A stretch of DNA of 64,000 nucleotides from Stentor roeselii. Its lineage: Eukaryota > Ciliophora > Heterotrichea > Heterotrichida > Stentoridae. Below the pieces are notes generated by a model, which had not been told where the DNA came from, searched no databases, and saw only the letters and a program-made list of their open reading frames with translations. Location: the NCBI GenBank assembly GCA_006503475.1, contig RSEH01000144.1:1-64000 (forward strand), read 5' to 3'. This document shows, one piece after another, positions 1 to 17,624 of the stretch (positions within the stretch are counted from its first letter, which is position 1; the number at the start of each line of letters is the position of its first letter). A program made the translations under genes and the position numbers.

Positions 1-2
1 TT

Positions 3-284
3 GCAAGGATTTTATTGAAGGAAAATTTTGTTGTTGTTATGGATGAAGCTACTTCTAAATTGTATCATATGTCTGATCACTTGGTGCAAAAAATGGTGAA
101 GGAAAAGTTTAGAGATAAGACTTTAATTGTTATTGCTCATCGATTACTTACTGTTGTTGATAGCGATTTGATTTGTGTCATGGAAGAGGGAAAATGTGTT
201 GAATTTGGAAAACATGAGGATTTGGTTTTGATGGAAAATTCGGTTTATAGAAGTCTTGTTGAGTTTAGCTTAGGTAATCAGTAG
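3..284 (+). CDS. ABC transporter, C-terminal end of a nucleotide-binding domain (partial)
   Basis: The frame is open from the window edge and ends at TAG 282-284. What remains is the end of an ATP-binding cassette: a Walker B strand (VVVMDEA), then the switch-histidine segment (IVIAHRL), then the MEEGKCVEFG strand and a short tail. The spacing and the closing EFG..E.L pattern resemble the second NBD of ABCC/MRP-type full transporters, which export anions or conjugates across membranes. The D-loop is odd: the usual SxLD after Walker B reads SKLY, so the conserved Asp is absent. The 5' part lies outside the window, so subfamily and membrane topology cannot be judged. The ABC assignment is firm; the ABCC assignment is inference. 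Confidence 0.85.
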   Translation, partial: ARILLKENFVVVMDEATSKLYHMSDHLVQKMVKEKFRDKTLIVIAHRLLTVVDSDLICVMEEGKCVEFGKHEDLVLMENSVYRSLVEFSLGNQ

Positions 285-392
285 AATTTTGAAAAGGGTT
301 GAAAGAGAATGGTTTTATAGATATTGATTTCAGAGTAATGCTTTAGTTTGAAGTTTAGATTCTAATAATAATATAAAATCTGAACTAATCAA

Positions 393-866
393 TTAAGAAT
401 TACCCCATATAGAGTTTTTGCACTCAGGATAAGCTGACTTCCACTTTTTTGCTGCTGTTGAATTGTTTTCTTCCCAGCCAAACTTTCCGGTTTTGATGAG
501 ATATTCCTTCCTCATATTAATAATTTGCACTAATTGAATCTAACAGCGTTCTTAATGGCTGTTACCTGTTTATTCCAACTATCTCCAACTTCAGTAAAAT
601 TTACAACCTTCTTTAAAGTTACTATCTTGGGAAAATTTACAATATATTCTTGGTGTGATTTTGTAAGATACCTCGATAAAGTAGGTTTGATAAATATATT
701 GCATCTTAATTCTTTTGGAATTACAAACGATGCTGCATTAATCAGTTCATTTGAATTAGATATAATTTAAAGAATTAAAGCATCCGTTCTCATTACCCAA
801 TATCATTTCCCAATAAAAATCTAATTTTTCACTGGAATCAAGTATAGAACAATTAGATGGTTTCAT
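393..866 (-). pseudogene. Decayed protein-coding gene, family unknown
   Basis: Read on the minus strand, three consecutive open stretches in shifting frames look like former coding sequence. One starts at ATG 864-866, the second runs through the middle, and the third starts with ATG 513-515 and ends at TAA 393-395. The last one encodes 40 residues rich in Trp, Gly and Lys (YLIKTGKFGWEEN, then AAKKWKSAYPE). Between the second and third lies GTTAGATTCAATTAG, which has the length, borders and A10 of the introns seen elsewhere in this window, but splicing it out does not join the frames. The C-terminal piece has a weak likeness to a WGR (PARP-type) fold, which I do not trust. It could also be chance. 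Confidence 0.35.
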
Positions 867-1703
867 AATCTAAATACCACCCCGATATAAAAGGATTATA
901 AAAATTAAGTCTGAAACTGAAAAAAATTAAAAGTTTATTAAACTGAATGATAAATAACTTTGAATGGCTTAAAGCATTTGAATACCAAGTTCAAAACATT
1001 GAACTTTTTACATATTTTTAGCGTTAAAAGTATATCACAATATTCAAAAACTATCAATACCACTTCAACATAATCAAATGTAAAAAGTTATTACAATTCT
1101 GATCATCATCAACATACTATCATAAAAAACATAGTAGAGAAAATTCCTGTTCAAATTGAATTCCAGACATAAACCTGGAAAAAAAATTGTTTTGATGATT
1201 TTTCGATAGGACAAATATAAGGAGCTCACATGAAATCTTAAGATGCAGGCGAAAACATAGTGATGGTCGTCACTTGCAATTATAAGTAAATATAGATAAT
1301 TTATTTACTTTCAAAGTCGAATCCCATCCTAAACTTTGAATATTTTTCTAAGCTTCCTCAAATTATGTGAAAAAGCACTTTTTTATAAAGTCAAGTGAAA
1401 ATTTAAACGATTCCAATAAGATAAGAGGTAATCATAAACATTAAATGATTACCCATATTTCAACAGATCATAAAAGATTCAAAACTTTTAGCTGAGTATA
1501 TTTAGTAATGATTAACTTCATTCACTTTAAAAGAATTAAAAATACTACATTTGATTAAGTTTTTAGATTAATTACATTAAATTTACCTTAGAATAATCTA
1601 ATCCTGAGAATCTAAAATTGAGAGATAGATAATTCTTCAATAAACTAATTAGAATACCTTTCAAATAATGCCATCTCAAATTACTTCAACTAATCAGTCT
1701 GCT
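867..1703. other. AT-rich intergenic DNA
   Basis: No open frame with protein-like content was seen on either strand, and no RNA gene. The stretch is strongly AT-rich with short homopolymer runs. It separates the decayed gene from the 3' end of the first receptor gene. Confidence 0.6.
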
Positions 1704-2516
1704 CTATTGAATTAGATTAACTAAAGAATGATTATTAATTTCTCTCTCTACTTTGATAGCTTGCTTGAGTTCAGGAGTGAATCCAAGTGAAATACTATTG
1801 AAAAATCCTATCAAGCAAAGCATATAAAATGAAAAAACCTGAAAAGCAAAACTTTCTTGATTCTTAAACAAAAGATAATAAACAGTAACAGGAATAACAC
1901 AAACAAAAGTAATAAAAGGATAAACCAGGAGTCTAACATAAGTCCATCTCATATAATTCAAAGAGTCTCGAGTCATTCTAAATGTTTTTGTAATGATTTT
2001 AGAACTCGTATATGCACTCCAAGTAAGTGAAAACAATAATATCAGTGAATCCAGAACAGAAACTAAAATATAAATAATACTTTCGCATTCAAAAATGCAA
2101 ATTTCATCTGACACTGAAATACAATCAAACCCCAGGACAAGACTACTTGAAAGCAATGAAAGAAACGCTCCTATCATCAGAGGCTTTTTCAATGAAATCG
2201 TCCCTTTTTCAATACCTAAATATGTGACCTTATAAATGAAATTTGAAAAAACTGACACCCAGTACGTTTGAATCAAGATAAATGCTAGAAAAGTTGATGT
2301 CATCACTTTACAGGCTGTTTCGTCATTTAAAAATTCAACAAATGGAATCAGATTCACCAAGGTCATCATTAGGTCGAAGGTTTGAAGTATTGCAACATAT
2401 TTCATGCCGAATGTCAAACGGACTGAACGATATTTGAAGAATAAATAGAGAAAAGCTGAACAACCAAGAGCACTCAAGGAACAAGGAATGATCAAAAGGT
2501 AGTAAAGTAAGTTCAT
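1704..2516 (-). CDS. Seven-transmembrane GPCR-like receptor, family member 1
   Basis: 270 aa with seven hydrophobic segments at roughly 4-27, 38-58, 72-95, 110-131, 146-170, 192-215 and 226-247, and almost no tails. Family signatures are YRSVRLTFGMK before TM2, WTYVRLLVYPFI entering TM6, and GFFNSISLGFTPEL at the end of TM7. Cys69 at the head of TM3 and Cys132/140/144 in the second outer loop could form the usual GPCR disulfide. The TM7 GFFNS pattern recalls the cAMP-receptor/GPR157-like branch of GPCRs, but no family can be named with certainty. It is probably a surface receptor, perhaps chemosensory (inference). It is the first of eight copies in this window and one of two on the minus strand. 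Confidence 0.8.
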   Translation of the reverse strand: MNLLYYLLIIPCSLSALGCSAFLYLFFKYRSVRLTFGMKYVAILQTFDLMMTLVNLIPFVEFLNDETACKVMTSTFLAFILIQTYWVSVFSNFIYKVTYLGIEKGTISLKKPLMIGAFLSLLSSSLVLGFDCISVSDEICIFECESIIYILVSVLDSLILLFSLTWSAYTSSKIITKTFRMTRDSLNYMRWTYVRLLVYPFITFVCVIPVTVYYLLFKNQESFAFQVFSFYMLCLIGFFNSISLGFTPELKQAIKVEREINNHSLVNLIQ

Positions 2517-3786
2517 TTTATTTTGGGGAAATTTTATATTTTAGATTTGTAATAAGCTATACAAAATTCATTTGAAAAGAAATAAATTCACTATACTTTT
2601 AACCAAACTTAAAACTTTCTATTATATTTTCATAAGTCTAGTATTTAATATATAACGAGAATCAATTAATAGTTTGAGAGTCTATATGCTGATATTTGAA
2701 AGATAGGTCACGTTGCTTTTACTAATTCTTTACAATTTCGAATCTAACATCAAATTCACTTATAGCATCATAATTCAAAAATGTATATATTGATGATAAC
2801 ACTAATTAAGCTAAAACTTGAAAAAATTTAATTATTATTCTTTATTAAATTAGTCACTGTGATATAAATAAATCTATGTTTTCTTCAGGTTAGAATTAAA
2901 GTTCGATTGTAATATTGATTTAGGGTCTTAATTTAACTAGACATGAACATAATTTGATTTAATAGTTAATATATATATAAAATTAATATATTTAGCATTC
3001 AAAGTCAGTTCCAATGTTTCTTATCAGTGATTTCTCTAACTAAATAAAAAATCAATTGAAAACTCGGGTCTAAAATAATATATTAAAATCACAAACATAA
3101 AATGATCATTTTTTTCAATTAAATCCACTGGAAAAATGCAAGTATAATAATATGGCAGTCGACTAGTTCAAATTTTAATAATTTATCAGACATAATCAAT
3201 TTATATAACTAGGGGCTTTCAAAAATATTATCTGAGCTTGCATTTCATTGGACATGTATGAAGCCTAATAATGATTTTTTCCTAGTTCTTTTATCTTTTT
3301 TAAAGCCATGTTTTACTCAGCTTTTATTCTTCTTTTATCTTTTTTAAAGCCATATTTTACTCGGTTTTTATTCTTCTTTTATCTTTTTTAAAGCCATGTT
3401 TTACTCAGCTTTTATTCTTCTTTTGTGTTTTGACTATGCTTAATTCTAATAAATAATCAAAGCTAAAAATATAGTAAGTTGATTTATAAATATATTCATT
3501 GAATCTTTCGAACCATTGATATTATGATAATGAATCTGAATAGATAAATTATGGCATTGTTGACTGATGAATCTGAAAAAATTGCAAATTGATTTCTAAA
3601 ATTTAATTAGATCGATCATCTAACTGCATTATTTTTATGAAATGTATTTACACTTAGTTCATATTTTATTGCAGCATTGATCATTAACATGATATAACCA
3701 TTTATAAACTCAGAGAATGTCTGATATAATTTTCATCAAAAAGTGTAAACATATATTAATTAATATCACAGATAGACAATAATTTA
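2517..3786. other. AT-rich spacer with a short tandem repeat
   Basis: This spacer separates the two minus-strand receptor genes. Apart from the 44-bp tandem repeat near 3286-3424, I see only AT-rich sequence without protein-like frames. Confidence 0.6.
3286..3424. repeat. Tandem repeat, three copies of a 44-bp unit
   Basis: Three head-to-tail copies span 3286-3329, 3330-3373 and 3374-3417, followed by the first 7 bases of a fourth. Copies 1 and 3 are identical; copy 2 differs by a few transitions. Each unit carries the core TTTTAAAGCCATRTTTTACTC, which is T-rich on the plus strand. No coding frame runs through it. Confidence 0.9.
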
Positions 3787-4605
3787 CTAAGTTTCTAATA
3801 ATATAAATGTTATTTTTGATTGTTTCTTGATATCATTTTCAAGTCTGATCGCATGTAGTAGTTCTGGAGTAAATCCTAAAACAACGCTATTGAAAAATCC
3901 AATTAAATAAGGAAAGCAATCACAAAATACCACAGAAGGAGTATCAATTGCATTAGGATGCAAAATATAATAAACAAAACTTGGTAAAGAACATAGATAT
4001 GTAATATAAGGATAAATCAAAAGTCTAGTTAATGTCCATTTGTGCTGATTCAAACTTCCTTTAAGGTTTATCCGAATTTTTCGAATGGTTTTTAAATTAG
4101 TATATAAACTGAATAATAAAGAAATCAAAGCTAAGAAAATGTTTATCCAATTAACAATTAACGTGATTTCATGAAAACGACATTCTAATGAACAAAAATG
4201 ATCATTTAATTTATAACACAAGAAGATTGATTCCAAGAAAGGAGTAAATAATGAAATTATTGTAGAGAAGATTAATTGTTGTTTTAATTTTATTCTTTCT
4301 TTCTCTCTCCCTAGATAAATCGTTTGATACATGTAATTTGATAATATTGATACCCATAAGGTTTGAAATAGTACAAAAAAATCGTAGGGAGCACTCACAA
4401 TATTACAAAGTATATCATTACCATAAAGTACTGGGACTAAACCTAAAGAACACATCATTAAATCTGCTAATTGTAAAATCGCTACGTATTTCATTCCAAA
4501 AGTCAGTCTAATTCCTTTGAATTTATAGAACAGAAAAAGGAAGATAGAGCAGCCTAGTACACTTAAAGTGCAAGGTAGGATAAGCATATAATATATTGAT
4601 ACCAT
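3787..4605 (-). CDS. Seven-transmembrane GPCR-like receptor, family member 2
   Basis: 272 aa, the same family as the gene at 1704-2516, shown by FKGIRLTFGMKYVAILQ before TM2, the TM3 cysteine (LCNIV), the paired outer-loop cysteines (CSLEC), WTLTRLLIYPYI at TM6 and GFFNSVVLGFTPELLHAIR at TM7. It is the most divergent full-length member here, with long changes in the outer loops. The start is the only Met before TM1, and the stop TAA is followed by AT-rich DNA. It appears intact. Ligand and coupling are unknown. Confidence 0.78.
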   Translation of the reverse strand: MVSIYYMLILPCTLSVLGCSIFLFLFYKFKGIRLTFGMKYVAILQLADLMMCSLGLVPVLYGNDILCNIVSAPYDFFVLFQTLWVSILSNYMYQTIYLGREKERIKLKQQLIFSTIISLFTPFLESIFLCYKLNDHFCSLECRFHEITLIVNWINIFLALISLLFSLYTNLKTIRKIRINLKGSLNQHKWTLTRLLIYPYITYLCSLPSFVYYILHPNAIDTPSVVFCDCFPYLIGFFNSVVLGFTPELLHAIRLENDIKKQSKITFILLET

Positions 4606-7600
4606 TAGAGATTTATTTAGCTAGTTTCCATAATATTCTATGATCTAATTTTTCAAATACATTCAAATCTTAAAGTTGTTTATATGGATAAGTGCAAGGA
4701 TAGTACTAAACATTAGCGTAGTATTATTTCTGGCTCTCCAACCACCCATCAGTTAGCGACACGCAATTCTGCATTATTTTTCATCTTAATTGTTTTTCAA
4801 TTTTCTCATAATCAAATTGTCTTCGTTAAATTTAATAAAATGCTTACAAAATTAAAATCAGAACTAATTTCCAAACACTCAACAGATATGAATCACTATT
4901 GAATTAGAATTTTGAAGATATTGATTTTTTGTAAGCTATAAGGAAATTTTTTCAAGGATGAGCTCTCTTTTTTAAAATAATATAAACTTTGTCGCACTTA
5001 CTTCCTTAAATCCTAAACAAAAATTTTCATATCTGTAAAATTTATCTTTCTACAAGATAAGTTTCACATAATAGAGCCTACCACGAATTAAAGAAGAAAA
5101 TAACGAAATAAATAAATAAAAATTCAATTTAGAAGATATTAGCTTGGCCAATTTAATAAAACGCTAATTGTATACAAGGTTTAGGAAAGTATTGTTATAA
5201 TATTAATAGTTTATTCACCTGCACTATTGTTTTTCACACTATTGTTTAATTAAGTCAGATAATTAGTTATGAAATAATCATTCCTTCAATGAAGAATTTG
5301 ACTGGTAATTATAATCACTTTTCTCCTCAATTATATGATAAAAAAAAGACATGGTCTAAACACATTCAAAATAAAAAAACTGATAGCTTCTGCATGCCTA
5401 AAGCTATACTTCAATTATTGATATTTCTCTGCCCAGAATACTCTTAAACTGAAAATGGTGCATCATATAATAGCTAAAACTAACTCTAATCTGAAAGCAT
5501 AATATAGGAATGAATATATCTTCATATATTCTTATTAATTCTTTCATTTTATTTAAAACATAGTGCATTATAATGATTAAAGTAATTATTAAGATATCCA
5601 ATGATTATACCAACCAATTCTTTTTCTTCATATTGTAAAGATCTTTAAACACAATATTTCTATAATTATTTTAGATTTTCAAGTTAAAAAATAAAACTAG
5701 AAGATATACTTGATTAAAATTTAAGAAAATAGATTAATAGATAGAATATCATCAATTCTATTTATAACTTGACTGTTTAATAAATAAATTTTATATATAA
5801 CGCTGATCGATATAAAATCATAAATTTTTCATTGAATAAATATTTGCTATTCAAGATTTTAAAAAGCGATTCTTAAAGCATTGAATCTAAATACTTTTGT
5901 TTTTGCTTGATCATTAAATATTTAATAATTAAATATAGCCTAGAAAATTATGAAATCAATAACTTGTGAAATAAAACCATAGTTCTAATTAATTACTCAC
6001 ATCAAAATTTACAAGGATAAGCTTAAGGCTGGCTTATTAATTTTTGGAAATAATTAAATTGAATTTAGGTCGATCTCAAACTTTTTGAATATAAATCACG
6101 TTACTTCATTATGTTTGTTGATATTGTTCACAAACAAGCTAATCCCACATTTTTATAGCAGTTCTAATTTATTGATTCTATTTATTTATATATCATTCTT
6201 CTTTTGCAATCCGCTTCGATAGTTAACAATTTAATGAAATTAATCAAACAAATATACTAAAGATGTACTTGTAAAATCATTAGAATTGATTATAAAATTC
6301 ATCTAAACTTAAATTCCAATAAAATATTGAATTTTTTTATCCTTTTCGCCACTGCCATAAAGTTAATTTTATATATTCTTGCAAGTTTAATAAATAAATA
6401 AGATTATTGGTAATTTATTGTTTGGTCAAATAACAGGCTTCTATTGTAATCGAAAAGGAATATTTGAATTCTATAGGAAAGCAAAATTTGTTTAGAGAAA
6501 ATGATTTATTATTATTGTGATGTTAAAATTCAAAGCATTTGTATTATTTTTCATGTTGAAGCTGCAATTTTGTTATAATTTATATGAATAACAAATTTCA
6601 TCCTCACTTTGTGAATGATAAGTAATAAGGACGATTGAAGTTACTTAATTAAATTTAGAGAAACTTGAAATCTAATGGGTGAGCGTAGATTGAAATGTAA
6701 GAGATATCAACATAAATCATAATTCTGAAACTAATAACTTTAGGGTTTACATAAAATTAACTAAATATTTTATTTTAGGTTTTCAAAGTTATGGGCTTAA
6801 TACTAACTAAAGCAAAATATTCTCGCAACCTTCATATATATAAAAAAGATTAAACCTAGGAATTTGCTTTATTTATTTAGAGTTTGATAATGATTTGTTT
6901 ATACAAAAGCTCATATTCACAATAAGCCTGTTAATCATAGGTCCAGCTCTATCTATCAAATAAACATTTTAGTTTTAAAACTTAAAAATTAAAATAAAAA
7001 CAATAATGTAGATTTTCAAAAGTATTACATTACTCATTCAAGAAGTCATTAAAACCAGAATCATAAGAATAATGATTTATTTTTATAAACTCTGAGATTT
7101 GGTTTATGAAGATTGCAAGTTTCTTATTTTTACTTTGATTTCTCAATAAATTTTTTCATACATTTTTGGTGTAAATGCTTTTGAATTAATATTTTTAAAG
7201 TATCGATTTTAATTCTTATTTTTTATTCAATTCTTTTTTTTGGATTTACTAGTTACTGCTATTTATTGAATTTACTTTGAATTTCCTCAATTTTTTCATT
7301 TAGAATTATTATAAATGAAAGTTTGGGTTAATAAGCTGATTTCTTATTCATTAGATCACTAATGATTATAATTTCTAATACTTTTATCATGTTTTCGAAA
7401 TAGTCATTTAGAGATTTCTGTGAAAATGAGGCAAAATTAAGACTTTCAAAAAATTTCATAGCTTTGGCACTTAAAAATTGATTGAATTCGAAGTTTTAGC
7501 GAAATATTCAAAGATATATATATTAAATATTCTCTACTCAAATATAATGATAAAAACATTTACATTAACTTCCAGTAATTTAAGATAAATATTTAAAAGT

Positions 7601-8613
7601 CTACTTCAGATTATTTTCTACTCAAGATAGTCATAAAAACATCACCTTTTCATTAAATTTCAGAAAAATTCCTTAGTTTTTAACATGCTTTAAAATATAT
7701 TAGACTTTCTAAATATTCAAATTCATGCATAACAATTTAGTTATTAAATGAAAAACTTCCCTGATGTGGATAGAGCAAACTTCTTAAGAATAGTCTTCTA
7801 TAATTTTAATTTTAGATAGCATGGTTCTTTCTGCTTTTATTAAGATCAAACCATAAAAAAATTTTTGCTAAGATCTTCATTAATAATACTAATAATGCCA
7901 ATTATTAGCTTCTAATAAAAAATATAAATTTTCTTTATCTATTATAAAATCTGAAAATTTGATCTTCACTCAGATTGATTTCTAAAATTATTAAATAAAA
8001 TGAATTTTCTTTTAAGTATTCGAAGTTGTCTACTATTGAAATTTAAACCTAACAAAGATAGGATATTATTCACACTTTAATCTCTTATTTGTTTAATTTT
8101 TATCAGATATCTTGAATACTTTGTTAAATATTTAGTCAAGTTTAATAATTTTGTAATTTTTTTTAAATAGGTAGTTTTGGATTTTCTTTGGTTTCTTCAG
8201 AAATTTTTTAGGTCTATTTTCAAAATAGTAAAGATTTTAAGTTACGAAAACGATATTACCAAGATTCTTATATATAAGTAACTTGCTCTCTACATTTCCG
8301 AAAGAATATTTATTGTAAAGGTACTTTAATAAGATAATTTTATTGAACTTCGATTTCACTGCTTTCTAAAGTATTAGACTTCTCTGATTTGGCTATTTGT
8401 CAATTGTCAGTTAAAATTTGAATTATAATTATATGATTTATTTGCATATTTGAATGATTTCTAGATATTTTCATATTTGGATAGTTTAGTTGAACTTAAT
8501 GAAATGATCTAAATTTTTTCGAAGGTGGCTTTGTCATGGTTTGACTTGAAAGAAATTCATCTATAAAGTCTCCTTAAAAAGTGCATATTTTCTATTATTT
8601 ACTCTAAATAAAT
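4606..8613. other. 4-kb gene-poor, very AT-rich region
   Basis: No convincing gene was found on either strand. A 65-codon minus-strand frame at 5404-5601 lacks family features and I treat it as chance. The segment lies between minus-strand receptors on the left and plus-strand receptors on the right, so it holds the point where array orientation switches. I looked for the family words LTFGMK and GFTPEL in both orientations and saw no decayed copies. An origin, a promoter or fossils too old to see cannot be excluded. Confidence 0.55.
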
Positions 8614-9432
8614 ATGCTCTTGATATACTATCTCCTTATCTTTCCTTGCACACTAAGTTCAATAGGCTGTTCAGTTTATCTAATCTTATTTTGCAAATAT
8701 CGATCAATCCAAATGACATTCGGGATGAAACACGTAGCAATTCTCCAAACAGCAGACCTATTAATGTCCCTATCAAGTATCATGCCAGCAACTCAAATAT
8801 TAAATAACGATTACATGTGTAAAGTTGTATCTTTTACATTTAAAACTTCAATATTGATTCAAACTTTATGGGTATCAGTGTTCTCGAACTTTATTTATCA
8901 AGTAGTTTGCCAAGAAAAAGAAAAAGAATCAATATCGATAAAAAAACCTTTTATTTTAGTAGTGCTTATATCGACGTTATCGTCATGCTTGAGTATTGGA
9001 TTCAACTGCATCGTGAGTACTGATGAAGGCTGCAGGTTTGACTGCAAAATTTCTGTAACAATTGCAGTTTACTTGATTAATTATCTTATTATCTCGATTT
9101 CTTTGCTTTTTAGTATTTATGCAAGTGTGAAGGTCATCAAAAAAGTTTTAAGAAATTCATGTGAAAGTTCAGGAAGATTCAAATGGACTTTTGTTAGGTT
9201 ATTCGTTTACCCTTTTATTACTTTTGGGTGTTTGTTGCCTTCTTCTGTTAATCATCTGTTTTTTGATAATCGAATTGATTCTTTTACGTTTCAGGTGTTT
9301 TCTGATTATATGATTTGCTTGATTGGGTTTTTTAATAGTCTTGCACTTGGATTTACTCCTGAACTCAAGCAAGCGATCAAAGTGGATGAAGATCTAAAAA
9401 ATCAGTCATTAATTAGATTAAATAAGATTTAA
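8614..9432 (+). CDS. Seven-transmembrane GPCR-like receptor, family member 3
   Basis: 272 aa, intact. It carries the full signature set: YRSIQMTFGMKHVAILQ, the TM3 cysteine (MCKVV), outer-loop cysteines at GFNC and GCRFDC, FKWTFVRLFVYPFI at TM6 and GFFNSLALGFTPELKQAIK at TM7. It is the first plus-strand copy of the array and the nearest full-length relative of the member at 1704-2516. The 200 bases upstream hold no other gene. Receptor function is inferred from topology and the conserved cysteine pair only. Confidence 0.8.
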   Translation: MLLIYYLLIFPCTLSSIGCSVYLILFCKYRSIQMTFGMKHVAILQTADLLMSLSSIMPATQILNNDYMCKVVSFTFKTSILIQTLWVSVFSNFIYQVVCQEKEKESISIKKPFILVVLISTLSSCLSIGFNCIVSTDEGCRFDCKISVTIAVYLINYLIISISLLFSIYASVKVIKKVLRNSCESSGRFKWTFVRLFVYPFITFGCLLPSSVNHLFFDNRIDSFTFQVFSDYMICLIGFFNSLALGFTPELKQAIKVDEDLKNQSLIRLNKI

Positions 9433-9923
9433 GTCTTTTTAATCAGTTTTATGTTTAGGAATGAATTTGATTTTGATTATAAGAGTGATCAGGTTATTTT
9501 AGAAATAGTTCAGAAAATCATATTAAACTGATCTCATATAGAATATAATCAAAAATACAATAATAAACTATCTTATGAAATTAAGTACTTATTTTATACA
9601 GATATCATCATTCTATGTACCATCAACTGCTAAATTTTTCCAATAATGTTTCTAAAATACGAAGCATTAGATAAAAATTTTAAATGAAGTATATAGGAAT
9701 ATTTCGAATGATTGATAGGAATATTGCATTTGATTAGTATGATTTTTGCTATAGGATCTAATAGAAATCTATGATTCCCTTACTACTCCTTTTAATAGGT
9801 CGAGATAACTTAGAACATATTAAAAATTGATAATATATAAAAAATTTATATATATAGCTTAAAAGATTAGTTCTTAAAGAAATGTGCATATAATTCAATA
9901 GCCAATTAAGATATAAATTATAA
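9433..9923. other. AT-rich spacer between receptors 3 and 4
   Basis: No gene seen. The minus-strand frame at 9758-10126 overlaps the start of the next receptor and reads as a shadow of it. Confidence 0.6.
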
Positions 9924-10739
9924 ATGGATTTATACAGCTGGTTGTTTATGATACCATCGATTCTCAGTGCATTTGGCTGCTCAGTCTTTCTCATACTATT
10001 CTTGAAATATAAGACTATAAGATTAACATTTGGAATGAAACATATAGCAATCTTACAATCAATAGATCTAATAATGTCAATAAGTGCTTTATGTATTTTA
10101 TCTGAATCAAGTATGATTACATGCACATTTTTCAGTGGTACCTATCTAGGATGCATAATCTTTCAATCAGTTTGGGTCTCAGTTTTTTCTAACTATCTAT
10201 ATCAGGTGATTTATAATGGTAAAGATAAGGATAATATATCGATTTCGAAGCCATTTTTTCTTAGTCTGAGTATTTCTTCAATAATTCCTTCATTGAATAT
10301 AGGATTTCAATGTTTTTCTTATAATGGAAGAAGCTGCGCGAGTGATTGTTTGCAGGAAAATTATAATTGGTTTTTCTTATCCTCTGCATCAATATTATTT
10401 CTTTCTTTTTGTTTTAGTCTTTATGCCAACTTTAAAACAATCAAAAAGATTATAATAAATCTAAGTGACTCAAAGAAAAATATGAAATGGTCTCTTGCCA
10501 GACTTATTGCATTCCCATTTATTATCTTGTTATGCCTAGCTCCAGGGCCAATTTACGGTTATTCAAAGGATCTTAATGTAAAGAGAGATGATCCAATTGC
10601 GATTCTTTTAGATTGTTTAATCGATTTGATTGGATTCTTTAATAGTGTTGTTCTAGCTTTATCACCTGAACTTCTAGACGCAATAAAATTAGATCGAGAA
10701 CTGATAAGTCAATCAGAAATTATTTTAAATTCATCTTAG
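9924..10739 (+). CDS. Seven-transmembrane GPCR-like receptor, family member 4 (recent duplicate)
   Basis: 271 aa, intact, with YKTIRLTFGMKHIAILQ, ITCTFF at TM3, CASDC in outer loop 2, MKWSLARLIAFPFI at TM6 and GFFNSVVLALSPELLDAIK at TM7. It forms a close pair with the gene at 11517-12332. Segments expected to face the cytoplasm (about 17-47, 90-107, 170-207) are almost identical between the two, while the N-terminus, the TM2-TM3 region, outer loop 2 and outer loop 3 carry most differences. The DNA similarity stops close to the start codon, so the promoters differ. The pair forms a subgroup with SPELLDAIK instead of the TPELKQAIK of other members. Confidence 0.82.
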   Translation: MDLYSWLFMIPSILSAFGCSVFLILFLKYKTIRLTFGMKHIAILQSIDLIMSISALCILSESSMITCTFFSGTYLGCIIFQSVWVSVFSNYLYQVIYNGKDKDNISISKPFFLSLSISSIIPSLNIGFQCFSYNGRSCASDCLQENYNWFFLSSASILFLSFCFSLYANFKTIKKIIINLSDSKKNMKWSLARLIAFPFIILLCLAPGPIYGYSKDLNVKRDDPIAILLDCLIDLIGFFNSVVLALSPELLDAIKLDRELISQSEIILNSS

Positions 10740-10867
10740 TCTTTAAAATATTTACAAACTTCAATCTCTATAATTTTTCTATAATTTTATTAGTTTGTCT
10801 TTCAAAATAAACGTTATTGATGATTTATTTTGTTATAATTCCATAGTATTTAAGTATCAGAGGTTGT

Positions 10868-11125
10868 TAATTTTCTCTATTGTACTTCAAATATCGTCTA
10901 TCCGTCTGGCCTTTGAAATGAAAAATATAGCAACCCTCCAAATCTTTTGCAATTCCTAAAAGAGTCTGATTCCACTACAGGGAACTTTGAACATGCCTTT
11001 TAAGATAATAAGTAAAACTTTTTCAGTTCTTATTCCAATATTCTAGGTACCAGTCTTTAATTTTATTTATCAAGTCATTTACCTAGGAAAGGAAAAAGGA
11101 TCCTTCTCAAATAAACTTTTAAACC
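10868..11125 (+). pseudogene. Decayed receptor-family copy (TM1 end to TM3/TM4 loop)
   Basis: The DNA aligns by eye with the 12401-13213 gene from its TTTGGAATGAAA region (here TTTGAAATGAAAAATATAGC) to the TM3-TM4 loop (here TTTATCAAGTCATTTACCTAGG, then GGAAAAAGGA). Several stops and frame changes interrupt it and both ends are missing, so it is an old, partial, non-functional copy. It passes directly into the relic at 11139-11482. Confidence 0.75.
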
Positions 11126-11138
11126 GATGTTCAGAAGG

Positions 11139-11482
11139 TAATTAAAGTTCTGCTGGCCATTCTAATAGATTAAGGCAAAGGGATTAAGCAGAGGTTACAG
11201 ATTAATTGATTGAATTCCTCCTTCCAATCATACATAAAGAGAAACTTTCGAAGAAAATTTAAGTAGGTTCAAATAATTTTTTAACAGATAAACCTTAGAC
11301 TCTTCAGAAGTTAAGTATGAGAATTACATCTTGATACTTATTCAAAATAAAGTCGCAAAATTGACAATTTCTTATGAGTTTTAACATGAAGAATAAACTT
11401 GAGGCTATTATGATTGTAGTCAATCACTACAACTTGTGTGAAAATGCTCGAGGTTTAAGGAAAATTTAAAAATTATTGGAGC
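11139..11482 (+). pseudogene. Decayed copy of the gene now at 16887-17624
   Basis: The DNA matches the middle of the 16887-17624 gene (about nt 17115-17485) along its length. Shared blocks include CATAAAGAGAAACTTTCGAAG, a stretch ending AAGTCGCAAAATTGACAATTTC, and AACTTGTGTGAAAATGCTC. It is in the same orientation as the receptors but full of stops, and both ends are missing. It shows that a paralogue or copy of that N-myristoylation-type gene once stood directly downstream of a receptor copy, as part of a duplicated segment. Confidence 0.8.
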
Positions 11483-11516
11483 ACTGATACAATTAAAATT
11501 ACTTTATAATTTTGAA

Positions 11517-12332
11517 ATGGATTATTTAACCTATTTAAGAATGATACCATCAATGATCAGTGCATTTGGCTGCTCAGTCTTTCTCATACTATTCTTGAAA
11601 TATAAGACTATAAGATTAACATTTGGAATGAAACATATAGCAATCTTACAATCAATAGGTCTAATTATGTCAATAAGTTCTTTATGCGGTTTTTCTCAAT
11701 CAAGTATGTTTATATGCACATTTTTCTATGGTACCTATATAGGATGCATAATCTTTCAATCAGTTTGGGTCTCAGTTTTTTCTAACTATCTATATCAGGT
11801 AATTTATAATGGTAAAGATAAGGATAATATATCGATTTTGAAGCCATTTGCTCTTAATCTGAGCATTTCTTCAATAATTCCTTCATTTTTTATAGGATTC
11901 CGATGTTTTTCTTATAATGGAAGAAGGTGCGCGGTGGATTGTTCGCAGGAAAATTATAATTGGATTTTCTTATCCTTTGCATCAATATTATTTCTTTCTT
12001 TTTGTTTTAGTCTTTATGCCAACTTAAAAACAATCAAAAAGATTATAATAAATCTAAGTGATTCAAAGAAAAATATGAAATGGTCTCTTGCCAGACTTAT
12101 TGCATTCCCATTTATTATCTTGTTATGCCTAGCTCCGAGCCCAATTTACTATTATTCAAAGGGTCTTAATGTAAAGAGAGATGATTCAATTTCGATTCTT
12201 TTAAATTGTTTAATCGATTTGATTGGATTCTTTAATAGTGTTGTTTTAGCATTATCACCTGAACTTCTAGACGCAATAAAATTTGACCGAGAAATGAAAA
12301 GAAAATCAGATTTAAGTTTAATTTCAACTTAG
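11517..12332 (+). CDS. Seven-transmembrane GPCR-like receptor, family member 5 (recent duplicate)
   Basis: 271 aa, intact, closest relative of the gene at 9924-10739. Long stretches of DNA are identical, for example from the TM1 end to TM2 and across the TM5-TM6 inner loop. Differences are mostly amino-acid-changing and cluster on the outer face: N-terminal residues 3-8, residues about 55-75, CAVDC versus CASDC, and YYYSKGLN versus YGYSKDLN before TM7. The C-terminal tail also differs (MKRKSDLSLIST). The next family member starts only 68 nt downstream of the stop codon. Confidence 0.82.
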   Translation: MDYLTYLRMIPSMISAFGCSVFLILFLKYKTIRLTFGMKHIAILQSIGLIMSISSLCGFSQSSMFICTFFYGTYIGCIIFQSVWVSVFSNYLYQVIYNGKDKDNISILKPFALNLSISSIIPSFFIGFRCFSYNGRRCAVDCSQENYNWIFLSFASILFLSFCFSLYANLKTIKKIIINLSDSKKNMKWSLARLIAFPFIILLCLAPSPIYYYSKGLNVKRDDSISILLNCLIDLIGFFNSVVLALSPELLDAIKFDREMKRKSDLSLIST

Positions 12333-12400
12333 TCTTAAATAGTAAATGATACTTAATCCCCTGAAAATTATAACCATTATAAATATATTTGTGAGTCTAA

Positions 12401-13213
12401 ATGATATTGATGTACTATCTTCTTATTCTTCCTTGCTCTTTAAGTATCATAGGCTGCTCGATTTTCCTTTATTTATACTGGAAATATCGATCTATCCGTT
12501 TGACATTTGGAATGAAACACATAGCAATCCTTCAAACCTTCGACCTAATAATGGCAACAGTGAGTTTCGTTCCACTCTTAGGATTCATCGACGATAAGAT
12601 GACTTGCAAGGTAATAACAATCTCTTTTCTCACTCTAATCTTAATTCAAACATTCTGGGTCTCAGTCTTTTCAACTATCATTTATCAAGTCATTTACCTG
12701 GGCAAGGAAAAAGAATGTATCTCAATAAAAAAACCTTTGATTTTAGGAGTGGCTGTTTCATTATTAACACCTTCATTGAATATAGGATTTGACTGTGTTT
12801 CGAATAAAGGCGAGGTATGAATATTTGACTGTGATTTATTGGTTTTTATTATAATATTTATCATCAATTCAGTTATAGTTGTCGGGTCTTTTTTATTGAG
12901 TCTTTACACAAGCTTCAAAGTAACTCGGAAAATTTTTAGTGATGCTAGAGGATCTCTGAGGAAAATGAAATGGTCTTTGATAAGACTACTTGTTTTTCCA
13001 TTTATCGCTTTTTTTTGTATCGCCCCGATTGCTATTTATTATATTTTTTATAGGGACTCAAGGAAAAATTATCCAGTTCTTATTATTTGTGCTTACTTGT
13101 TGTGTCTTATCGGATTTTTTAATAGTCTTACTTTAGGATTCACACCTGAACTTAAACAAGCTATAAAATTAGATAAGGACTTAAAGAATCAGTCAGCAGT
13201 TAGCTTAGTTTAA
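12401..13213 (+). pseudogene. Seven-transmembrane GPCR-like receptor, family member 6, with an in-frame TGA
   Basis: The frame runs unbroken for 271 codons (12401-13213) except for one TGA at 12818-12820 (codon 140). Everything else is conserved, including YRSIRLTFGMKHIAILQ, the TM3 cysteine (TCKV), IFDC just after the TGA, MKWSLIRLLVFPFI and GFFNSLTLGFTPELKQAIK. Paralogues have Cys at this codon (EIC, EGC, RSC, RRC), so the change is most simply TGT or TGC to TGA. Either the gene is freshly dead, or the stop is read through, or one base is an error. An intron cannot explain it: the flanks align residue for residue with the paralogues. Confidence 0.75.
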
Positions 13214-13267
13214 TCATTTAATCAAATCACTTGAATTATTCTATCATCAAAGTTTTCTCATAATAAA

Positions 13268-14165
13268 ATGGATACTTTATACTTGGTAAAATTATTTCCT
13301 TGTTTACTTAGTTCAATTGGATGCTCTATATTTCTTTGTCTTTACTACAAATATAGATCCATCCAGCTTACATTTGGAATGAAACATGTTGCAATACTTC
13401 AATCATTTGATCTGCTAATGACCTTAATCAACATTATTCCATTTCCTTTGTTTTCAAATAGTCGAGATACTTGCAAAGTAATAAGTTCAGTGTTCTTAGC
13501 TTCTATTTTGATGCAAACTTTTTGGGTTGCAGTGTTTTCGAATTATCTCTACCAGTTTATCCATTAGAGGCTTTATAAAATTTATAAATATTGATGGCAG
13601 TCTTTATAATTAATATGTTTATACCATATAAACATTATTAAATATATTACAGAAGGATAAAGACTCAATTTCAATTAAATTCCCATTTATCTTGGGCATT
13701 TCAATTTCGATAATTCCTTCGATTTTAATTCTTATATTTGATTGTATTCGGGATCATGATAATATTTGCCAATTTTGCATTAATCCTCCCTTAGTTCTAT
13801 TTGTTGAAGTTTACAACTTTTTTATAGTCGTTGCTTCTTTCTGCTGGAGTCTTTACACAAGCTTTAAATCATATAAAAAAATTTTGAATGATGTAAGAGA
13901 ATCATTAAGAGCTATGAAATGGAGCTTAGTAAGATTGATTTTTTTCCCTTTCATTACAATTATCTGCATTATACCATCAACTATTTATTATATGTTGTAT
14001 GCAAACAGTTTACATAACTACCCTTTCCTGATTTTCTCGTATAGCTTAGTATGTTTGATTGGATTTTTGAATAGTATTTCTTTAGGATTTACACCAGAAC
14101 TAAAGCAAGCGATTAAATTAGATAGAGAACTTAGAAAGCAATCAGAGATTAATTTGGTTTATTAG
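13268..14165 (+). pseudogene. Seven-transmembrane GPCR-like receptor, family member 7, interrupted by about 85 bp
   Basis: Residues 1-97 run from 13268 to a point just before TAG 13565-13567. The rest of the protein resumes in another frame at about 13650 (KDKDSISI...) and runs to 14165 with TM4-TM7 fully conserved (MKWSLVRLIFFPFI, GFLNSISLGFTPELKQAIK). The insert of about 85 bp is over 75% AT and has no 15-nt intron structure. Removing 85 bp between two TAT sites (13558 and 13643) would restore one frame of 270 codons, one residue short of the paralogues in that loop. A retained TA-bounded internal eliminated sequence, a small mobile element or simple decay are all possible. Confidence 0.7.
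13558..13645. other. AT-rich insert within receptor 7
   Basis: About 85 bp absent from all paralogues, inserted in the TM3-TM4 inner loop. It contains the near-palindrome GTTTATACCATATAAAC (about 13618-13634). TAT occurs at both proposed borders. The length and TA borders would suit a ciliate IES, but the exact ends cannot be fixed from one sequence. Confidence 0.5.
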
Positions 14166-14274
14166 ATCAAGCCAAAGAGAATATTTTAGTTAATTAGAGT
14201 AAGAATCAATAACACAGTCTTAGACTAAAAAATATTTACTCAACAATAAAAGTCTTACATTATTGCAAGAATAA

Positions 14275-15077
14275 ATGGAACTCTTACATTTAATCTTAAT
14301 CTTTCCCTCGTTAATCAGTGCATTAGGATGCTCTATCTTTCTGTTTATTTATGGAAAATACAGATCAGTCAGGCTAACATTCGGAATGAAATATGTCGCG
14401 ATATTACAAATCTTAGATCTCTTAATGACCTTAATTAACTTATTTCTCTTCTTGAATCTTTCAAATGATAGAGATCTCTGCAGAATCGTCAATACAAGTT
14501 TCTTATTTTTTATTTTTATGCAAACTTTCTGGGTTTCAGCTTTTTCAAATTATATATACCAGGTTGTTTATAGAGAGGAAAGGATAAAAATAGCATTTCT
14601 TTAAAGATTCCTTTGATTCTTGGTATTATAATTTCCATCCCTGTTCCTGTGCTTATGCTTGGATTTGATTGTATTGGTATTAAGCAAAATTCTTGTGTTC
14701 TAAATTGTGAAATTATGACATTGACTTTGTTTTTAGGATTTATTGTTACTTCTTTCTCATGGAGTACTTATACTAGCTTTAAATCATTAAAAAAAATTTG
14801 GAATGATGCACGTGGATCATTAAAAGAAATGAAATGGTCACTTGCAAGGCTAATTGTTTATCCCTTTATTACATTTATTTGTGTTATCCCTATTACTATA
14901 AATTATTCGCTATATACAGATCATCCAGTGAATACTCCATTTCTTATCTTTTCAACTATTTTGGTATTTTTAATTGGGTTTTTTAATAGTGTTGCACTGG
15001 GATTCACACCTGAACTAAAACAAGCGATAAAATTGGACAGAAATTTGAGAAAACAATCAGCAATAGACCTTATTTAG
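14275..15077 (+). pseudogene. Seven-transmembrane GPCR-like receptor, family member 8, with a 1-nt frameshift
   Basis: The first frame (14275-14604) gives TM1-TM3 and ends in YREERIKIAFL. The correct continuation (GIIISIPVPVLMLGFDC...) lies one frame away and runs to TAG 15077. Alignment with paralogues (GKEKECISIKK, GKDKDNISI) points to one missing A in the A/G run at about 14578-14583; with it the protein would be 267 aa. Other signatures are intact: YRSVRLTFGMKYVAILQ, LCRIV, MKWSLARLIVYPFI, GFFNSVALGFTPELKQAIK. A recent null allele and an assembly error in an A-run are equally possible. Confidence 0.72.
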
Positions 15078-16886: not shown

Positions 16887-17624
16887 ATGGGTTCAAAATC
16901 TTCTAGAATCCCAACAGCTGTTCCAGGCCACCTACTACTACTAACAGGCATCGAAGAATTCGACAAAGTCTACCGAGTTCTGGAACTTCCAACAAAACGA
17001 ATAAAAGAAACAGAAATCGACTTAAACATGCACACAACTGAATTCATCCGAAGCCTTGGCGCTCGTGAAGTCTGGGAAGTGAAGCCAAATGTTCAGAAGT
17101 TGATTCAAGTTATGCTTGTAATTCTTTCAGCTGATGGCAGCGGGACATTGACAGAGTTAGTTGACTACTCGATTGACTTTCCGTTTCTTGTCATTCATAA
17201 AGAGAAACTTTCGAAGAGTAGTCAAGGAGTTGCAGATCATTTCGTTAAATTGATGAACTTACTTCAGACTCTTCCGAAAAATATTAATAAACCGGTTCAG
17301 AAACTTAGTACGAGGATTGATACTTTAAGACTTTTTCAGAATGAAGTCGCGAAAAAGACGATTTCTTCTGGGTATAATATGAAGGATAAACTTGCTGCTA
17401 TTTCGATTGTGGTTAATAACTACAATATGTGTGAAAATGCTCTCAAGGTTTCGAGGGAAATGGAAAAAATCAGTGAAGAAGTCATTGAAGCGGTTAGCAG
17501 TGCAGTTCAAAAAGCCCAAGTATCACCTCATTGCGAAATCCTAGCAAGTCGTGGTCTTCAAGCATCAAGTGAAGGTTTAACAAAGCCGAAGTCAATAGTA
17601 AAAAAGTTCTGGCCTTTGGTTTAA
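16887..17624 (+). CDS. Putative N-myristoylated protein of unknown function
   Basis: 245 aa. It begins MGSKSSRIP, with Gly2 and Ser6 fitting the N-myristoylation consensus. The rest is mostly helical and has no family that I recognise. It is neither secreted nor membrane-spanning, so it may be a membrane-anchored soluble protein. A decayed copy lies at 11139-11482, next to a receptor relic. The stop TAA (17622-17624) is only 10 nt before the ATG of the STPGR gene. Removing GTTTAATACTTAATAG (16 nt, 17619-17634) would join both proteins in frame, but that string lacks the A found six bases from the 3' end of the 15-nt introns, so I keep two genes. Confidence 0.75.
   Translation: MGSKSSRIPTAVPGHLLLLTGIEEFDKVYRVLELPTKRIKETEIDLNMHTTEFIRSLGAREVWEVKPNVQKLIQVMLVILSADGSGTLTELVDYSIDFPFLVIHKEKLSKSSQGVADHFVKLMNLLQTLPKNINKPVQKLSTRIDTLRLFQNEVAKKTISSGYNMKDKLAAISIVVNNYNMCENALKVSREMEKISEEVIEAVSSAVQKAQVSPHCEILASRGLQASSEGLTKPKSIVKKFWPLV

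Follow-up and report, generated by a model that had tools for sequence, protein, structure and literature searches.

The window analysed here is a 64-kb stretch of Stentor roeselii DNA (contig RSEH01000144.1 of assembly GCA_006503475.1, positions 1 to 64,000). Its left end carries a tandem array of genes for seven-transmembrane proteins which, judged by searches through the genome (44.4 Mb, 522 contigs) and by structural models, appear to form a divergent branch of class-E, that is cyclic AMP (cAMP)-receptor-like, G-protein-coupled receptors (GPCRs). The array spans positions 1,704-15,077 and contains five intact one-exon genes, three copies each broken by a single lesion, and a truncated relic (Table 1). 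The initial annotation, made from the letters of the window, had counted eight copies and a relic, as we did, but its length range of 267-272 amino acids (aa) was too wide for the intact copies. It had also placed the array in AT-rich DNA with no copies to its right, and both statements held. G+C content was 22-29% over 1-14,000 against 34-42% over 16,000-54,000 (29-36% beyond 54,000), and a tblastn search with 24 family proteins (expect value, E, up to 1e-3) gave no family match beyond 15,074 in the 64 kb.

Table 1. Receptor genes, broken copies and relics in the array (ORF, open reading frame; nt, nucleotides; AF2, AlphaFold2).
Feature	Position	Strand	Remarks
Intact receptor gene	1704-2516	-	270 aa, standard-code ORF
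Intact receptor gene	3787-4605	-	272 aa, standard-code ORF; second AF2 model; pairs with C149 copy
Intact receptor gene	8614-9432	+	272 aa, standard-code ORF; first AF2 model
Intact receptor gene	9924-10739	+	271 aa; 84% aa identity with 11517-12332
Truncated receptor relic	10817-11115	+	best E 1.6e-8
Neighbour-gene relic	11127-11472	+	directly behind receptor relic; 69% over 382 columns against 17089-17468
Intact receptor gene	11517-12332	+	271 aa, standard-code ORF
Broken receptor copy	12401-13213	+	in-frame TGA at 12818-12820, codon aligned with Cys140
Broken receptor copy	13268-14165	+	82-nt insert at 13565-13646
Broken receptor copy	14275-15077	+	2-nt excess within 14572-14578

Structural models of two copies (8614 and 3787), built with AF2 from window sequences only, reached predicted local distance difference test scores of 78.2 and 81.3 and predicted TM-scores of 0.77 and 0.80. 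Both contained seven helices, a hairpin in the second extracellular loop (ECL2) and a helix 8. When the models were compared with known structures by Foldseek, at least 49 and at least 48 of the 50 matches listed per model were GPCRs by title, the rows titled otherwise being 7sr8 for the first model and 7sr8 and 8xgo for the second (best E 3.6e-6 and 8.5e-7; query TM-score 0.61-0.77). All five intact copies, at 270-272 aa, have short termini, with the helices in the models running from residue 2 to 271, and carry 2-6 lysines or arginines in each inner loop and 0-3 in each outer loop. The predicted architecture is that of a GPCR-type seven-helix fold with helix 8, the topology that the initial annotation had proposed to check by structure prediction. 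As for its remark that the usual tails are lacking, cAMP receptors normally have short ones according to the part of PMC12716839 covered here.

By sequence, the array copies lie beyond the reach of general profiles. Even at E up to 10, none of the five intact copies had a match to a Pfam GPCR family, and in none did Dicty_CAR (PF05462) reach its cut-off; NCBIfam returned nothing for eight family members. Profiles built from the array alone found no relative among PDB sequences, with one chance hit in one search and none in the other. In the whole genome, the Dicty_CAR profile gave 39 matches, 38 over the Pfam cut-off, and all 13 matches to 7tm_2 fell on genes of the Dicty_CAR-matching set. A set of 24 proteins, eight from the array core and 16 other relatives from the genome, matched Dicty_CAR in 5/24 (best 2e-16), 7tm_2 in 5/24 and 7tm_1 in 3/24 at E up to 0.1, and among the best 60 of 158 PDB matches its profile aligned over nearly the full length with class-B and adhesion GPCR chains (best 8e-13). 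Because class-E rows drive these matches, we based the link between array and class E on the tree described below and on pairwise matches of array copies to the Dicty_CAR-matching genes C510, C396 and C107, which ranged from 2.5e-13 to 6.7e-11. Both lines of sequence evidence indicate that the array shares descent with Dicty_CAR genes of the same genome. The Pfam comparison suggested earlier thus has a divided outcome: the array copies match no GPCR model, but their genome relatives do match Dicty_CAR.

Copy 8614 used as a query gave 49 genome matches, ten rows in the window and 39 on other contigs; the family is not restricted to the array. The merged matches fell on 52 contigs and marked at least 81 places, of which 29 lay in nine clusters spaced by no more than 5 kb; this is a lower bound tallied from hand-entered coordinates and including fragments. 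Apart from the array, eight further small clusters of related seven-transmembrane genes, each of 2-4 places under the same 5-kb spacing limit, were seen on C518, C253, C522, C34, C86, C5, C288 and C310. For the tree we used 48 rows (45 intact proteins and the three broken copies) and left out four duplicate loci, five intron-broken genes, one fragment and the places whose locus was not retrieved. An array clade of 15 rows was recovered beside the class-E rows with support of 100/100; it comprised the eight window copies and copies C220, C149 and C252, and its remaining four rows, from C179, C184 and C253 (two), form a subclade with a long stem. Since copy 3787 grouped with C149 (100/98) and the 9924/11517 pair joined C252, at weak support (91/45), copies have also moved between contigs. 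About 8 kb from the intact C252 copy lies L016 (C252:3880-4326), an incomplete receptor copy interrupted by an in-frame stop, which represents a second decay site.

To examine cysteines and motifs, the eleven rows of the array core (the eight window copies plus C220, C149 and C252) were compared with the 37 other rows. Cys69, in transmembrane helix 3 (TM3), was found in 11/11 array-core rows and 36/37 others, and Cys140, in ECL2, in 10/11 (the eleventh carries TGA) and 37/37, so that the TM3-ECL2 pair typical of GPCRs is near-universal in the family and Cys69-Cys140 is a putative disulfide. Cys132 (11/11) and Cys144 (10/11) were absent from all 37 rows elsewhere. In the first AF2 model the ECL2 hairpin lies between residues 132 and 144, so that a second disulfide, Cys132-Cys144, private to the array core, is plausible. 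The motifs described for GPR157 in the part of PMC12716839 covered are WCWI/V/L in ECL2 and QGxxNxIxF in TM7. No outer-loop WCW occurred in any of the 11 array-core rows, and the array TM7 keeps only G-F-x-N. Of the likeness to cAMP receptors and GPR157 proposed in the initial annotation, the class-E kinship (pairwise matches and tree) and the TM7 G-F-x-N therefore stand, but the GPR157 WCW and full TM7 motif do not. Nor is the signature GFFNSxxLGFTPELxxAI strict, as 9924 and 11517 read LALSPEL and one broken copy reads GFLNS.

We then divided the proteins into an inner and an outer half at the helix boundaries of the first AF2 model. Mean pairwise identity among the 11 core rows was 0.55 in the inner half and 0.29 in the outer half (ratio 1.9, p 2.6e-14), and the four rows of the sister subclade gave 0.50 and 0.26. 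The ratio was 1.25 in the Dicty_CAR group C34/C86/C327 (7 rows), 0.90 in C510/C107/C32/C318/C162 (5 rows), 1.03 in C383/C208/C101/C396b (4 rows) and 1.34 in the control C518 group (4 rows); a weaker contrast is thus present in two control groups. The freshest duplicates, 9924 and 11517, were the only unsaturated pair. Over their core (residues 15-259), nonsynonymous (dN) and synonymous (dS) divergence were 0.018 and 0.071 in the inner half and 0.127 and 0.078 in the outer half, that is, a dN/dS ratio (omega) of 0.26 inside and 1.62 outside, and nonsynonymous sites differed between halves (Fisher p 1.3e-6). Mutation rate or patchy conversion as a cause of the outer-half change was disfavoured, dS being alike in both halves. 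In the computable pairs with a broken copy, dN/dS was 0.18-0.37 at saturated dS, a rough sign of long constraint. The divergence of the two halves matches the olfactory-type expectation of a diversifying outer half and a constrained inner half, without significant positive selection.

The history of the array could be followed in the same pair of duplicates. The receptor relic behind 9924 makes up the second half of a tandemly repeated unit, with 9904-11115 matching 11497-12729 at 83% over 1244 columns, and the array holds tandem duplicates together with broken and truncated members, as olfactory-type families do. The coding bodies of 9924 and 11517 differ by 8.6% and their flanks, of which the relic forms part, by 29-40%, which suggests that an older duplication was followed by gene conversion across the coding body. 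The tandem unit, the relics, the lesions and this difference between coding and flank divergence agree with the birth-and-death pattern first proposed. The neighbour-gene relic fused behind the truncated receptor relic is a relic of the gene at 16887-17624.

The three lesions are either recent or assembly errors. Ciliate code table 6 (TAA/TAG read as glutamine) was rejected, as it gives ragged extensions and the standard code ends the copies at nearly the same place; relatives L006 and L024 terminate in TGA, which counts against recoding. A 15-nt intron behind each lesion was rejected by eye: the TGA copy lacks an AG at +15, in the 14275 copy the 15-nt candidate fails to correct the frame, and the 13268 copy has an insert of 82 nt. 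For this last stretch, which is very AT-rich and splits its receptor copy, a TA-bounded excised element was weighed by eye only, and the TA-to-TA excisions tried left the frame unrestored. The AT-rich DNA between receptor genes also holds a 58-nt direct repeat (3286-3343 and 3374-3431, 97% identical).

Introns of 15 nt do occur nearby and in related genes. One window gene, which from reading by eye we take to encode a NAD-dependent epimerase, is interrupted by the 15-mer GTACTTTCCACTTAG. Five class-E receptor genes (L043, L045, L049, L053 and L062) have a common 15-nt intron site near the end of TM2, and removal of the intron yielded a continuous protein in all five, with a search pattern that itself demanded A at position 10. 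The array copies are without this common intron. According to the part of PMC9505925 covered, about 91% of Stentor introns are 15 nt long, and their branch A is the tenth nucleotide. Introns of this length together with standard stops point to a heterotrich ciliate of Stentor type and agree with the ciliate origin assumed at the outset.

On balance, we favour the view that the array is a lineage-specific class-E branch in a heterotrich-type ciliate and that its members serve as chemoreceptors, a function that we infer and that the variability of the outer half strengthens. The receptors would be located in the surface or ciliary membrane, their N-terminus facing outward. The outer loop and the outer halves of the helices, pinned by Cys69-Cys140 and Cys132-Cys144, would form a pocket whose specificity differs per copy, and the conserved inner face (the RLTFGMK region of the first intracellular loop, inner TM2 and TM3, and PELxxAI between TM7 and helix 8) would relay the signal to one common partner, which may differ from a canonical G-alpha protein. 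Tandem duplication, homogenisation of the coding body and then change in the outer half would give rise to new specificities, and simple lesions would remove them. A bolder form of this proposal, that a unicell independently built an olfactory-style family on a class-E scaffold, with a private cysteine clamp, outer-half diversification after coding-body homogenisation and an inner face signalling to a partner other than canonical G-alpha, seems doubtful to us at present.

Several observations weigh against the chemoreceptor interpretation. The excess of the outer omega (1.62) over 1 is not significant (p 0.24), and the dN/dS contrast is carried by a single unsaturated pair. Outer omega was higher in all nine computable pairs (ten tried), class-E pairs included; it exceeded 1 solely in 9924/11517, and Fisher p was below 0.05 in 4/10. 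Ordinary GPCRs are often more variable outside. The intact array is small, as the core clade has eight intact members in the genome, five in the window and three elsewhere. Finally, the transducer step is unsupported by sequence searches. The G-alpha profile (PF00503) gave 20 genome matches and none over its cut-off, which does not prove absence; the four best were Arf GTPases, and two others were weak and aligned with the profile's N-terminal region. RGS and Ric8 likewise had no genome match over cut-off, but no control genome was matched, so that their absence is not established.

Foremost among the alternatives, although still unlikely, is that these are receptors for self-made cues (mating, cell-cell or cAMP-like ligands), with divergence tracking co-evolving ligands and not the chemical environment. 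Class-E kinship and the precedent of the Dictyostelium cAMP receptors speak for it, as does the shift in expression of Tetrahymena cAMP-clade genes in mating reported in the part of PMC3226668 covered; a small tandem family with a variable outer half fits many ligands better than one. We also judge it improbable that the array is a redundant, decaying subfamily under relaxed constraint, in which the outer half drifts as ligand binding ceases to matter and the inner half and fold are weakly selected. Such decay would suit the three broken copies and the relic that accompany the five intact genes, and an outer omega without significant excess over 1. It would not suit the eight intact array-core members genome-wide, the inner omega, the outer cysteines retained in 10-11 of 11 rows and the low dN/dS of the broken copies, albeit at saturated dS. 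That the proteins are a seven-helix transporter, enzyme or inverted receptor-channel merely resembling GPCRs is very improbable in view of the homology to Dicty_CAR genes, the predicted GPCR fold, which includes helix 8 and an ECL2 hairpin, the TM3-ECL2 cysteines and the loop charges, even though Pfam GPCR models and array-only profiles failed to connect the copies with GPCRs.

Returning to the chemoreceptor interpretation, its interest lies in the fact that ciliate chemical and avoidance behaviour is rich and few receptors have been tied to it. The branch, which a Pfam-only survey would miss, offers defined candidates in which the variable outer half should set specificity and the fixed inner half should lead to the transducer. 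If G-alpha is truly lacking from a genome in which 38 Dicty_CAR places exceed the cut-off, the coupling of ciliate GPCRs becomes a sharp question.

Compared with known systems, the array resembles class E (Dicty_CAR, including proteins with GPR157-like motifs) in descent, short termini, TM3-ECL2 cysteines, the TM7 G-F-x-N and helix 8, and differs from it in having no Pfam match, no WCW, the private Cys132 and Cys144 and a strongly variable outer half. Animal olfactory and vomeronasal receptor families likewise combine tandem and broken copies and are constrained inside and variable outside; they belong to another GPCR class and are far larger. In ciliates, the part of Luo et al. 2023 (PMC9960496) covered reports large, duplication-driven GPCR sets in heterotrichs, with 123 in Stentor coeruleus, from a survey by Pfam, Superfamily, PROSITE and BLASTP. 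A Pfam search, one of the routes taken in that survey, would overlook the array copies, and the part covered holds no chemoreceptor-type analysis. GPCR expansion in heterotrichs is therefore published, and the array, possibly an uncharacterised family in the initial annotation, is better described as a divergent class-E-like branch than as a family without known kin. Among the matches listed in the open literature, titles and abstract beginnings described no such ciliate array. All in all, this is a real tandem array of predicted GPCRs with chemoreceptor-type evolution and a presumed function. The kind of system is already known; what looks new is the branch itself and the way in which it changes.

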